Below, in pieces: positions 5,423 to 36,534 of a DNA stretch of 45,739 bases. The first letter of the stretch is position 1. Every line of letters begins with the position of its first letter. Where the stretch lies: assembly GCA_001918745.1 (NCBI GenBank), contig MNGN01000001.1, positions 1-45,739 of the forward strand. Direction: 5' to 3'. The translations under genes and the position numbers were made by a program. The notes beneath the pieces are model-generated. The model did not search any database. It saw nothing but the letters and a program-made list of their open reading frames with translations, and was not told where the DNA came from. The stretch comes from Crenarchaeota archaeon 13_1_40CM_3_52_17 (GTDB lineage Archaea; Thermoproteota; Bathyarchaeia; 40CM-2-53-6).

Positions 5423-5633
5423 CCCGGGGTAGCTCAGCCTGGAAGAGCTTCCGAGCCGCCCCCTAAAACAGCGGGCGACGAAGACGCTGTAGGTTTGCGC
5501 CCAGTGCGCAGCCACGTCAGCCTTACCAGGCTAACAGTAGACACCGGAGTGTCGCCGGAGAACCGCTAAGAACGGTTCGGCGAATTCAAAATGGAGGCTA
5601 TTCGCCTCCATGAGACTCCGGTCCCCGGGACCA
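5423..5633 (+). tRNA. tRNA-Tyr (GTA), interrupted by about four to five putative introns, CCA encoded
   Basis: Acceptor CCCGGGG (5423-5429) / CCCCGGG (5623-5629), A73, CCA. C1-G72 and AGCCTGG D-loop typical of archaeal tRNA-Tyr. Anticodon arm AGACG-CTGTAG|A-CGTC|T after intron removal, GTA at 5489-5491. T-stem ACCGG (5543-5547) / CCGGT (5618-5622). Intervening segments form hairpins. Confidence 0.7.
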
Positions 5634-10041: not shown

Positions 10042-10152
10042 TGGCGGGCCCGCGGGGATTCGAACCCCGGACCTACAGCTCAACCCGCTCCGAGGCATAG
10101 GGGGTTCGGCCAGAAGTGGACTGCCGCTCTATCCAGGCTGAGCTACGGGCCC
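10042..10152 (-). tRNA. tRNA of uncertain isotype (Arg-like body), intron-containing, CCA encoded
   Basis: GGGCCCG/CGGGCCC acceptor, GCTCAGCCTGGATAGAGC D-arm, CGGGG-TTCGAAT-CCCCG T-arm, GCCA end; 56 nt between D-stem and T-stem, about 33 nt more than needed. Confidence 0.7.
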
Positions 10153-12648: not shown

Positions 12649-13167
12649 TTATTTTCCTTCGAAGTGTTCAGTGTTCAATGTATAATAGACGATGTCTGTT
12701 CGTCTGTCGATTACGGCTAGGACTAGGTCTTTGCCTTCTTTGTTCGCTTTTGCCGAGAGTCTCGCGAGCTTTTCGAGTGTGGATTCTCCTCCTTCGAAGA
12801 CGATCGAGACCTGTCGGCGTGTGGCTCCTTTTCCAAAGGTTTCGAAGTCGAAGCCTTCTTCAGACTCTCGGACCAGATAGCCTCGGTCTCGAAGATCCCT
12901 GTATACCAAGTATTTCGTCCATATTGTTGACTTGCCAGTTGATACCTTTGTGACGAGATTCTGAAGCGTCTTCTCCTTTCCCGTCTTCTCGTCTGTTACA
13001 TGGGCGCGTCGTTTCTCGACAAGATAGAATGTTTCGTAAGGGCTTAGGAAGAGTTTGTCATTTACCAGGGTTCCGAACGCTTTCTCCCGGAGTTCCATGA
13101 GTTTCTCCGGTTCTTTCAGGTAGATCTTGTTCTTGGAGAGGAAAGCTTCGAGAACTTCTAGTGTCAT
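12649..13167 (-). CDS. tRNA intron endonuclease-like protein (EndA family, probably non-catalytic subunit)
   Basis: SPYETFYLVEK, KYLVYRDLRDRGYLV, LVLAVIDRRTDIVYYTL match EndA; expected Tyr is Phe (DFETFGKG) and expected His not seen (ATRRQVSIVF). Confidence 0.8.
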   Translation of the reverse strand: MTLEVLEAFLSKNKIYLKEPEKLMELREKAFGTLVNDKLFLSPYETFYLVEKRRAHVTDEKTGKEKTLQNLVTKVSTGKSTIWTKYLVYRDLRDRGYLVRESEEGFDFETFGKGATRRQVSIVFEGGESTLEKLARLSAKANKEGKDLVLAVIDRRTDIVYYTLNTEHFEGK

Positions 13168-13229
13168 CAAGCAATCGCACCTAGATGTGGTTTGAAACCG
13201 GTCAAAGCCGGGCAGGCGTCTATAAAGGC

Positions 13230-14315
13230 ATGCGAACAACTAGGATCGACAAACGGAGGTTTGAGAAAATGGCTGGGAGAGAACGAGTCTCGCTTGAGCC
13301 CGTGCGTTGGAAGAATGGGGTGCTGGAGGCGATTGACACGACAAAGCTGCCCGGTAGATTGGTGTATGTTCGTATGCGAACAGTTGATCAGGTTTGTTCG
13401 GCGATCCGCTCTATGAAAGTCAGGGGGGCGCCGTTGATCGGCGTCGTTGGCGCTTATGGTTTGGTCTTAGCGGCGATGAATCTCAGGAGCGGTGATTTGA
13501 AGCAGGCTCGATCACAGCTTCGCAAGTCGGCTGACGCTCTGATCTTAACGAGGCCGACTGGGGTGAATCTTCGCTGGGCTGTTGAGCGAGTCTTCAAAGC
13601 GTCTTCTCGTGTCAACTCAGTTGGCTTATTCGGCGATGAGTTGAGGCGGGAGGCTGATGCGATTCTTCGCGAGGAGCTTGAGTCCGCTCACAAGATCGGA
13701 CGCTTTGGCGCGGCTTTGATTGAAGATGAGGATACTGTTCTGACGCATTGCAATGCTGGGGCTCTGGCGACCGCGGGATATGGAACAGCGTTGGCGGTGG
13801 TCCGGTCCGCGGTTGAACAAGGGAAGAGAGTGTCTGTAATCGCGACAGAGACGAGACCATTGTTGCAAGGGTCGAGGCTCACAGCGTTTGAGCTGGCGCG
13901 GGACGGGATTCCAGTCCGCGTGATTGTTGATAGTGCGGCCGCACAGCTAATGGCTCAGGGAGTGGTGGACAAGATCGTTGTCGGTGCGGATAGGATCTTG
14001 GGAACAGGGCATGTTACGAACAAGATCGGGACGTTGCCAATCGCGCTTGCCGCCAAATTCTATGGCGTTCCGTTCTACGTCGCAGCTCCAGCATCAACGC
14101 TGGACTTGGTGACGGATGTGTCTCAGGTGGTTATTGAGGAACGGGATCAACAAGAGGTATTGTTGATCGGAGGGAGGCGTTTTGCGCCGAGCAACGTGGA
14201 GGCTCTGAACCCGGCCTTCGACATCACTCCGCCAGAACTGGTAACTGGGATTGTGACGGATCGCGGTGTGGTATGTCAGCCGTTCGCTGAGAATATTCGG
14301 GTTCTGTTTGGCTGA
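13230..14315 (+). CDS. mtnA: S-methyl-5-thioribose-1-phosphate isomerase family (MtnA-like)
   Basis: MKVRGAPLIGVVGAYGL, RPTGVNLRWAVER, HCNAGALATAGYGTAL, ETRPLLQGSRLTAFEL, VVGADRI. Start at 13230 or 13269. Confidence 0.88.
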   Translation: MRTTRIDKRRFEKMAGRERVSLEPVRWKNGVLEAIDTTKLPGRLVYVRMRTVDQVCSAIRSMKVRGAPLIGVVGAYGLVLAAMNLRSGDLKQARSQLRKSADALILTRPTGVNLRWAVERVFKASSRVNSVGLFGDELRREADAILREELESAHKIGRFGAALIEDEDTVLTHCNAGALATAGYGTALAVVRSAVEQGKRVSVIATETRPLLQGSRLTAFELARDGIPVRVIVDSAAAQLMAQGVVDKIVVGADRILGTGHVTNKIGTLPIALAAKFYGVPFYVAAPASTLDLVTDVSQVVIEERDQQEVLLIGGRRFAPSNVEALNPAFDITPPELVTGIVTDRGVVCQPFAENIRVLFG

Positions 14316-20181: not shown

Positions 20182-20281
20182 CGGGCCCGGTGGGATTCGA
20201 ACCCACGATTTTGGGCTCTCTTCACTCTGGAATCGATGGCTCCGAAGGCCCACGTCTTGGTCCTGGCTCGACTACGGGCCC
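20182..20281 (-). tRNA. tRNA-Arg (TCG) with a ~24-nt intron in the 3' anticodon stem; CCA not encoded
   Basis: GGGCCCG/CGGGCCC acceptor; TGGGC-CTTCGGA-GCC[intron]CA anticodon arm; AAATC variable loop; GTGGG-TTCGAAT-CCCAC T-arm. Confidence 0.8.
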
Positions 20282-32483: not shown

Positions 32484-34454
32484 ATGAGCCGTACTTCCGT
32501 TAAGGTCAACGATCTGTCTTGGATGACAGGCGGTCCGCAGGGCAGTGGAGTAGATTCATCTGCGAACATTTTCGCGGGAGCATGCGTTCTGGGTGGGCTC
32601 TGGACCTTCGGGCTCCGAGAATACTACTCCAGCATAAAAGGGCCTCACAGCTATTTCGAAGTCAGGGTAAACAGCGACAAGATTAGGTCCCACGTAAACA
32701 ACGTGGACGTCCTAGCGACGTTCGATGCCGAAACACTCATCCGCCATGCTGAGGAGGTTGCCCCGGGGGGCGGAATACTCTACGATCCCACATTTACAAA
32801 TATCGAGATCGACAAGATCGATTCGATAGAGACCCCTGTCGTTCTAAGAATCAAGGCTAGACTCGCGAAGCAAGGTCTGCCTGGAAACATTACTGGTATC
32901 CTGGAAGAAGCGAAAAGAAGAGGCGTCAACCTGTTCCCAATTCAATACAATGAGATTATCGCGAAGACCGCGGCCCAGATTGGAGAGCACCAGCTGAGCA
33001 AACTCTCAAGAATCGTCAACGTGCTCTCAGTCGCAGCCTCACTCGCAATCCTAGGTTTCGACGAGACCTATCTCAACCAGTCTATTGAGAGAGCGTTCGC
33101 GAGCAAGAAGAAGGTCGTTGACATGAACGAGATAGGCGCAAAGCTCGCCTACGACTCGGCCAAGACGCAACTGAAACAACCATTTCGATTCCAGCTCCAC
33201 CCTATTCAGAGCCAACCGAGACTATTGCTAATGGGTGTTGAAGCAATTGCACTTGGAAAGCTGGTGGGCGGTTGCAGGGTCCAGACCTATTACCCGATAA
33301 CCCCTGCTGCTGACGAGAGCGAGTTCCTAGAGTCTCACGGAAACTTCGACATCTCGGCGGGAAACAACCCGGGCCAAAAAGGCTCGATTCTAGTTACACA
33401 GACAGAGGATGAGATCGCGGCCATAACAATGGCAACGGGAGCCGCGTTGACAGGAGCGAGAGCCGCAACGTCCACCTCGGGCCCAGGGTTTTCTTTGATG
33501 GTCGAGGGATTGGGATGGGCGGGAATGAACGAGGTTCCGCTCGTTATAACCCACTACCAGAGGGGTGGCCCGGCAACGGGACAACCAACGAGGCACGAGC
33601 AGGGAGATCTGAAGTTCATTCTCAGCGCCGCTCACGGGGAGTTTCCGAGAATCGTGTTATGCTCAGGGGACATGGAAGAGAGCTTCTATGACGCGATCAG
33701 GATTTTCAACTATGCAGAACGATTTCAGATGCCCAGCATCCATCTGATCGACAAGGGATTAGCGAACAACAGCATGACCATCTCTCCACCAAATGGCGAT
33801 CTTGTTCCAATTCAAAGGGGAAAACTGATCCAAGGAGATCATCATGGAAACGGTGACGGGGAGCCGTACCGGCGATTTGCTTTCACTGAGGATGGGGTCT
33901 CGCCGCGGGCGGTTCTTGGAATGCCCGGCTATCGCTTCTGGAACACTGGAGACGAACATGACGAGATGGGACACATTGAGGAAGACCCGGACAACAGGGT
34001 GAAAATGATGACGAAGAGGATGACAAAGCTGGAAACGGCCGCGAAGGAGATTCCTGAAGAGGAAAAAGTGAACTTCTTCCGTTCGACCAAGAAACCAGCC
34101 GACGTTACAATCGTAAGCTGGGGTTCCCCGAAGGGACCAATAATAGACGCGATGAAACTACTGGAGAGGGACGGGATTGGAGTAGAATTTCTACAGATAA
34201 GACTCGTGAGTCCCTTCCCGACTGATGCTGTGAAGCAAAAACTGGCGGGAGCCAAACTAATCGTGGACATTGAACAGAACTATTCAGGCCAGATGGCCGC
34301 TGTTATAGCAGAAAAGACCATGATAGATGTCAAGAACAAGATTGTCAAATTCAACGGAAGACCGATGTCACAGGACGAGATCTATCAATCGGTCAAGCAA
34401 GTCGTGTCAAACCCGGAACAAAACAGGAGAGTGGTGCTGACCCATGGCGCTTAA
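32484..34454 (+). CDS. 2-oxoacid:ferredoxin oxidoreductase, fused gamma/alpha subunit
   Basis: [16 protein letters not shown] gamma-domain start; [51 protein letters not shown]. Confidence 0.92.
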
Positions 34455-36534
34455 GCTCACCGATCTGAAGACCGACGTCCACAACGACTGGTGTCCAGGA
34501 TGCTTAACAGGAGATACGCTGGTGTTTTCGAACCCAGCAGTCAAAGCAATCCGAGATGTCCGACCAGGTGAGCGGGTCCTCACCGCTGCGGGAGAGTATA
34601 GACAGGTTGTTGCAAGAATTCAGCATCGCTACAGTGGTCCGATGTATCGTGTTCGAGCCAAGTGTTTTGGAGAAATCAGAGCGACGCCGGAGCATCCTTT
34701 TGTTGCTGTCAGGAGAACATCAGGCAGGCACTACCACAATAGTGGTTTTGTGGAAGAACGAGTGCAGGCATCAGAGCTCAGAGTGGGAGACTACCTCGTC
34801 TTCCCAGTGATGCAGAAGGTCGAAGACGTCAGAACATTTCCATTCAATTACCAGAAGAAAGCTAAGGACACTCGAGGTAGACTACCGCCTTCAATAGTGT
34901 ACATGGATGCTGATCTCCTGCGATTGGCAGGCTATTACATCGCAGAAGGTTCTGCACACGGGAGGTCATTGATTTTCAGTTTCAGCCAAGCGGAAACATA
35001 CCTCATCGAGGATACGAAGGCGTCGATGGAGAGAATATTCCGACTGAGCGGCACGATCGCGGAATCCAGAAGAAACGGGGTCGATGTTGTCTTCAATTCT
35101 TCATACCTTGCGAAAGCATTTGAGGCGTTATTCGGAGGCAGATCTTGGAAAAAGCACATCCCGCACGAACTCATGTTGCTACCGCCATCAAAGCAAGTAC
35201 AGCTCATCAAGGGCTTGTGGAGAGGTGATGGAGACTTCAGAGATGCAAAGGCTAGATACAGCACAACCTCTGTCGTGCTTGCTGAACAAGTGAAGCTTCT
35301 ACTTCTGCGTCAAGGCATCGTTCCGATCGCCCATGTCGAACCAGCACACGAAAATCACAAGACTGCCTACAGACTGTATGTCAGTTACTGGAGGGATTAC
35401 AACAAGCTGGCTGAAATTGTGGGAGTGCCAGACCGCAAAAACATGAACAGGGACAAGCGTTCCTCCATAATTAGAAACAGCAGATTATATCTTCCGGTCG
35501 CTCAAATCGAAACCTTTCCCTTTGAAGGGAATGTCTACGACCTTACCATCAACGACCCCGCCCACACTTTCGTAACAAGCGTCACAGCCTCGGGGAACTG
35601 TGGAGACTTTGGTATCGAGGCGTCACTGAAGATGGCGCTGACCGAGATGCCGGTTGACATCAACAAGGTTGCATTGTTCTCCGGAATCGGTTGCTCTAGC
35701 AAACTTGTCCACTTCACCAACGCTTTTGGAATTCACACTCTACATGGTAGGGTATTGGGTTACGCGCAAGGCGCCAAGCTCGCGAATCCGGATCTAGAAG
35801 TGATTGCGGTCGGAGGAGACGGTGACGGACTGGGAATAGGAGTAGGCCATTTCGTGCACGCGGGAAGGCGGAACATAGACATGGCTTACATTATCCACGA
35901 CAACGGCGTCTATGGCTTGACCAAAGGGCAAGCTGCGCCTACGCTGCATCTGGGAATGCAGACGAAATCGCTTCCCGAACCGAACATCAATTCTAATATC
36001 AATCCGATAATGCTCGCGCTAGCATCAGGCTTCACCTTCATCGCTCGAAGCTACGCGTACAACACTAGACATCTCAAGGAGATGATCAAGAAAGCCGTCG
36101 CCCACAAAGGCTTCGCCCTAATAGACGCGCTCCAACCATGTCCAACATACAATGACATCAACACGAAGGAATGGTATGGTGGCGAGGATCGAATTGACCC
36201 GGCGACCAAGAGACCGATGCCACGAACATATGATCTGGAAAGCACCGGGTACAATGGAAGAGTAACCGCAGATATGAGCGAAGAGGACGTGGGCAAGAAC
36301 CTTCTCCATGTCATAGAGAAATCGAGAGAATGGGGAGACAAGATTCCAATAGGCGTCTTCTACCAGAATGAGATCGTGCCAATCTACGAGGAACGGATAA
36401 GCGAACGAAGCCCGAGTTACTTGAAAGAGCCACCTGCAAAACAGCAGCTCGCCAAGAACGACGGAAAGTCGGTTGTAAACCTGACCAACTTGTCAAAGGG
36501 ATTACTGTTCGAGAAGTTGGTTCTCGCACAGTAA
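34444..36534 (+). CDS. 2-oxoacid:ferredoxin oxidoreductase beta subunit, intein-containing precursor
   Basis: NDWCPG|intein|[38 protein letters not shown] motif. Confidence 0.95.
34501..35598 (+). other. Intein (366 aa) with LAGLIDADG-type endonuclease domain
   Basis: Starts CLTGDTLV, block [21 protein letters not shown] and [10 protein letters not shown] endonuclease motifs, ends [22 protein letters not shown] followed by Cys. Confidence 0.93.

Follow-up and report, generated by a model that had tools for sequence, protein, structure and literature searches.

Three introns is the maximum stated for a single archaeal tRNA gene, both in reviews and for tRNAscan-SE 2.0 (PMC8450103, PMC4390854), and genes with up to three are found in the Thermoproteales, such as those for tRNA-Glu and tRNA-Pro of Pyrobaculum (PMC4390854, PMC8450103). 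In Atabeyarchaeia and Freyarchaeia, according to the accessible part of one account, most tRNA genes are interrupted and over half carry multiple introns, and that part gives neither a per-gene maximum nor a tRNA-Tyr intron element (PMC11291895). Sulfolobus and Aeropyrum use a stand-alone H/ACA sRNA, in place of aPus7, to form pseudouridine 35 in pre-tRNA-Tyr (Muller et al. 2009, as far as it is cited in PMC6313347 and PMC7991803). In Euryarchaeota the intron of tRNA-Trp contains a box C/D guide that acts on the same tRNA (D'Orval 2001, according to PMC11408192), and in eukaryotes the formation of pseudouridine 35 in tRNA-Tyr is intron-dependent (reviewed in PMC11408192).

The tRNA-Tyr(GTA) gene described here, from a soil Bathyarchaeia genome, is predicted to contain four introns and its counterparts in related Bathyarchaeia up to five, in contrast to the three of the Thermoproteales; the preliminary description of this DNA had called four or more exceptional, in agreement with the maximum cited above. 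Its intron at position 37/38 carries a putative guide element, which would share with the Sulfolobus and Aeropyrum guide the target base and the action on an unspliced precursor, although theirs is a separate RNA, whereas this element lies inside the intron of its target, takes the D-loop as a stem strand and has no visible K-turn. The tRNA-Trp intron differs in that it belongs to another tRNA and directs C/D methylation, the pocket here being H/ACA-like, and in eukaryotes it is the Pus7 protein that acts, with no ACA or guide element. No report of a four- or five-intron tRNA gene was found in the literature searched, which was covered in part, nor one of a tRNA intron with an H/ACA-like element, for which the partial search was possibly insensitive.

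The interrupted tRNA-Tyr gene and its relatives

The gene occupies positions 5423-5633 (+) of the window (the whole stretch of DNA analysed, 45,739 nt), which belongs to a 1.78-Mb draft genome that is 80% complete; matches to the gene pattern among named genomes are mostly Candidatus Bathyarchaeota. In its unspliced form no tRNA is detected in this interval by ARAGORN, nor by Rfam at the gathering threshold. Removal of 5454-5485, 5493-5542, 5559-5584 and 5591-5616 joins the exons into a 77-nt product, CCCGGGGTAGCTCAGCCTGGAAGAGCTTCCGGCTGTAGACCGGAGTGTCGCCGGTTCAAATCCGGTCCCCGGGACCA, a full tRNA carrying the expected anticodon, which ARAGORN identifies as tRNA-Tyr(gta), and when the 37/38 intron alone is kept in the construct, the program reports an intron of 50 nt at that very place. 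The precursor folds with z = -5.6 relative to shuffles. When 118 distinct genes of relatives were spliced by one rule set, ARAGORN called all of them (118/118) tRNA-Tyr(gta). By this comparison the locus is an interrupted tRNA-Tyr(GTA) gene far beyond chance, since the relatives splice to the same tRNA and the exons are continuous in those that lack one or other intron. The preliminary description had thus placed an interrupted tRNA-Tyr(GTA) at exactly the right interval, and the comparison with orthologous genes that it proposed bears it out.

Exon 1 (5423-5453, CCCGGGGTAGCTCAGCCTGGAAGAGCTTCCG) comprises the 5' strand of the acceptor, T8 and A9, the D-arm and positions 26-30, and is delimited by the spliced product and by copies from the same genus (in G009, and one copy in G016) that lack the 30/31 intron and in which it runs directly into GCTGTAG, with TTCCGGCTGTAG unbroken. 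Intron 1, at position 30/31 (5454-5485, 32 nt), is supported by relatives, by the spliced product and by covarying hairpin arms. Exon 2 (5486-5492, GCTGTAG) contributes G31 and the anticodon loop 32-37, with the anticodon GTA at 5489-5491, and is followed by intron 2 at the canonical position 37/38 (5493-5542, 50 nt), which is placed by ARAGORN and by relatives alike. Exon 3 (5543-5558), which follows from the spliced product together with relatives whose T-arms are uninterrupted, holds A38, the 3' strand of the anticodon stem, the variable loop GTGTC and the T-stem 5' strand GCCGG (5554-5558). Intron 3, at 53/54 (5559-5584, 26 nt), is delimited by the spliced product and by comparison with relatives, some of which have no intron there; exon 4 (5585-5590) is the T-loop segment TTCAAA (54-59) of that product; and intron 4, at 59/60 (5591-5616, 26 nt), is placed by product and relatives. 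Exon 5 (5617-5633), again from the spliced product, supplies T60, the T-stem 3' strand CCGGT, the acceptor 3' strand CCCCGGG, A73 and an encoded CCA.

Several limits given in the preliminary description had to be moved to these positions. Its anticodon stem AGACG/CGTCT is replaced by TCCGG/CCGGA (27-31 being 5450-5453 plus 5486, and 39-43 being 5544-5548), as shown by relatives with uninterrupted arms, and its T-stem strand ACCGG (5543-5547) gives way to GCCGG, relatives having G-[CC/CA/CT]-GG. It had counted four to five introns, and the number that stands is four. A fifth in the 3' strand of the anticodon stem, at 5519-5537, was suggested by the local self-complementarity of AGCCTTACCAGGCT, but the 3' half of this segment covaries with the D-loop and not with its own 5' half, and the tRNA is complete when the segment stays inside a single 37/38 intron, of which it forms the interior. 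A separate intron here is refuted by the spliced product and the relatives, and we give it practically no credence.

Among the 118 genes two introns were counted in 51, three in 20, four in 41 and five in 6, and these counts are not unbiased frequencies, the pattern used to fetch the genes having required the 30/31 intron. In many Bathyarchaeia the T-arm is continuous (GCAGGTTCAAATCCTGC), other members of the family of the window genome have an intron at 44/45 and none at 53/54, and in one family of the same order a fifth intron is located at 9/10. The spliced gene models show in this way a ladder of two to five predicted introns across the clade. The arms of the 30/31 hairpin are 88% paired in relatives, compared with 57% when shuffled, and those of the 53/54 and 59/60 hairpins are also complementary above shuffled arms, the 53/54 value, from just 14 distinct pairs, barely exceeding the shuffle maximum. 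In the five-intron genes with the extra 9/10 intron (L048, L051, L052, L055, L057 and L058), inspection by eye shows the acceptor strand repeated, exactly or nearly so (TCCCGCGG), immediately before the gene. Two tRNA-Phe genes (L201 in G051 and L202 in G039) have an apparent 30/31 intron, indicating that introns at this site are not confined to tRNA-Tyr. The draft genome G016 contains two different tRNA-Tyr genes (L045 and L185), and the 3-kb contig on which one of them lies is probably a contaminant.

The 80%-complete draft that contains the window was searched for a further tRNA-Tyr, an intact copy having been named in the preliminary description as a possible refutation, and none was found. 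One locus (L001) is labelled Tyr by ARAGORN, a label that we reject; it is better read as tRNA-Thr(TGT), since it has G1-C72 and U73, which we take to be the archaeal tRNA-Thr pattern. A decaying pseudogene, with the intact tRNA-Tyr encoded elsewhere, would fit a draft in which a second copy could be missing, but the exons, the encoded CCA and the four splice motifs are intact, their conservation extends across the genus and to many families, no other tRNA-Tyr appears in the part of the genome that is assembled, and the inserts covary instead of drifting, so that decay is very improbable. The gene is predicted to be functional and apparently is the only tRNA-Tyr(GUA) gene of this species.

Most recognisable tRNA genes of the genome carry introns (loci L001-L030; in the window, 20182-20281 (-) and 10045-10152 (-)) and only 14 reach the Rfam tRNA cut-off, which makes it probable that heavy interruption extends to many further tRNAs. 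The window also contains, at 34444-36534 (+), a gene for the beta subunit of a ferredoxin oxidoreductase (a TPP enzyme) into which an intein bearing a LAGLIDADG domain is inserted.

Splice junctions and endonuclease

All four junctions, as read from the sequence, can form a bulge-helix-bulge (BHB) motif, with a 4-bp helix flanked by 3-nt bulges and the cut after the second bulge base, which is what the preliminary description had asked of them. At intron 1 the central helix pairs CTTC (5448-5451) with GAAG (5480-5483), between bulges CG/A (5452-5454) and AC/G (5484-5486), the slash marking the cut; at intron 2 CTGT (5487-5490) pairs with GTAG (5537-5540), between AG/G (5491-5493) and AC/A (5541-5543); at intron 3 CGCC (5553-5556) with GGCG (5579-5582), between GG/A and AA/T; and at intron 4 TTCA (5585-5588) with TGAG (5611-5614), between AA/A and AC/T. 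All these elements are on the forward strand. In the primary transcript neither the 30/31 nor the 53/54 motif has a strong outer helix, and both count as relaxed. The outer helix of the 37/38 motif is the anticodon stem, complete only once the 30/31 intron has been removed, and that of the 59/60 motif is the T-stem, complete only once the 53/54 intron has left. From this dependence we infer that the introns would be removed in order, and such a dependence has been described for two- and three-intron tRNA genes (PMC8450103).

Two EndA proteins are encoded in the genome: a catalytic-type subunit on another contig (C38), which keeps the catalytic His and Lys, and a structural, beta-type subunit of 196 aa in the window (12649-13239, -), which has lost the catalytic His according to its alignment with EndA of M. 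jannaschii. Relaxed BHB sites and tRNAs with several introns have been linked to endonucleases of the two-subunit kind (PMC4090602). The transcript with its four BHB introns would be cut by such a two-subunit enzyme and the exons then ligated.

The helix between the D-loop and the 37/38 intron

The preliminary description did not include a pairing between the 37/38 intron and the D-loop. In the window gene the D-loop and the first base of the 3' strand of the D-stem (5436-5445, +) pair with 5522-5532 (+) of the intron, forming 10 bp with A5525 bulged, and a helix of 9-10 bp covaries across about 120 genes. For example, G041 combines the D-arm GCTCAATGG with the intron CCATTGAGC. In the alignment 98.7% of the cells are paired and 45 two-sided changes are found, compared with 13.7 on average among 500 shuffles, all of which stayed below 45; when the register is shifted by one to three columns, the paired share is only 15-49%. 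Covariation thus shows that the D-loop pairs with the 37/38 intron in the precursor, as predicted from the aligned genes, and we are highly confident of the four-intron gene and this helix taken together. A local AGCCT/AGGCT hairpin within the intron was considered and rejected because one of its pairs fails in 30 of 68 distinct genes.

Over 127 genes the intron has one layout: a CAGC, the stretch that mirrors the D-loop, two free bases and an ACA. This motif was matched in 128 of 301 genomes sampled across the phylum, a figure that includes chance matches, about ten genomes being matched by a reversed-pattern control. It recurs in other families of the phylum and is present almost throughout one (f25) with many near-complete genomes. 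Class names among the matches beyond the class of the window genome include Nitrososphaeria, and we suspect that the motif-bearing families with complete genomes are ammonia-oxidising archaea. In a family without TruD (f28), one tRNA-Tyr gene (L251, in G087) has an intron in the D-loop, inside or next to the partner strand of the 37/38 intron.

A putative guide for position 35

In an unconstrained fold of the window precursor, the CAGC (5518-5521, +) pairs with G31-G34 (5486-5489) and leaves U35 and A36 free, while the D-loop is paired with the intron. The D-loop helix and the U35-A36 pocket occur together in 58.9% of 107 unconstrained precursor folds, versus 0.3% when the intron alone is dinucleotide-shuffled. 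The CAGC is present in 114 of the 127 genes, and the ACA (5534-5536, +; identified by comparison with relatives) lies 16 nt after the start of the CAGC in the window and 14-16 nt in 116/127. In H/ACA guides the ACA lies 14-16 nt from the pocket, counted from the closing pair (PMC4652768), and here usually 2-5 further nt separate the upper stem from the CAGC, so that the span from closing pair to ACA is mostly longer. The lower stem expected of such a guide is present: in 112/127 genes a 9-bp helix, with its 5' strand supplied by the D-loop, stops 2 nt short of the ACA. The pocket has a 3'-guide side only, with no 5'-guide strand, and the upper stem starts at G37. A K-turn or K-loop, a mark of archaeal H/ACA RNAs, was found in the upper hairpin of 3 of 114 introns and none is visible in that of the window gene. 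Exon bases 31-36 are invariant among the genes compared, and the CAGC pairing is for that reason beyond a covariation test.

TruD/Pus7 is the usual stand-alone enzyme for position 35 in archaea. It is absent from all genomes (21/21) of the family of the window genome, several of them 92-95% complete, and a Cbf5 gene is present in the genome. Across most of the phylum TruD is encoded, also in many of the genomes that have the element, and a rule by which the element would occur only where TruD is absent is unsupported, the two co-occurring in many families. In the five-intron family (f3), TruD lacks about 65 positions of the model in mid-protein (190-256). In another family (f16), the CAGC is replaced by TAAC (L089 and L114, also L190 and L192) with the D-loop helix and ACA kept, and one of the two genomes with TAAC has a full-length TruD, which offers a natural experiment on the guide proposal.

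In the mechanism that we propose, the D-loop/intron pairing would hold G31-G34 against the CAGC with U35-A36 unpaired and the ACA 14-16 nt away, and Cbf5 would make pseudouridine 35 on the precursor before splicing. That the 37/38 intron positions U35 in this manner is a function that we consider probable, our confidence being limited to moderate by the missing K-turn, the longer distance from the closing pair, the co-occurrence with TruD and the invariance of the bases facing the CAGC. We lean, too, towards the wider proposal, namely that in Bathyarchaeia and related archaea this intron may be a cis H/ACA-like guide that takes the D-loop as its lower-stem strand, presents U35 to Cbf5 before splicing and, in the family of the window genome, replaces a lost TruD/Pus7. 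Alternatively, the pairing could be a folding scaffold or timer, which keeps the D-loop and the anticodon arm out of the mature fold, so that introns would be removed in order and the unspliced RNA would stay uncharged. This is rather unlikely, although it is favoured by the D-loop helix being solid while the guide steps escape covariation, by TruD standing alongside the element in many families, by the lack of a K-turn and by the need of exon bases 32-35 to change partner to form the 37/38 BHB. It leaves unexplained why the ACA keeps its 14-16 nt from the CAGC even with extra bases before the splice site, and why the CAGC is retained in so many genes with U35-A36 unpaired.

The predicted structure of this gene would raise the record for one tRNA gene from the stated three introns to four, with five in near relatives, and in this clade the gain and loss of introns can be traced at seven positions of a single tRNA. 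It also offers a reason for the persistence of the intron in the anticodon loop of tRNA-Tyr: this intron pairs with the D-loop in a helix that is conserved, and it probably directs the modification of an anticodon base. If the guide function is true, the link between intron and pseudouridine 35 in eukaryotic tRNA-Tyr would have an RNA-guided counterpart in archaea.
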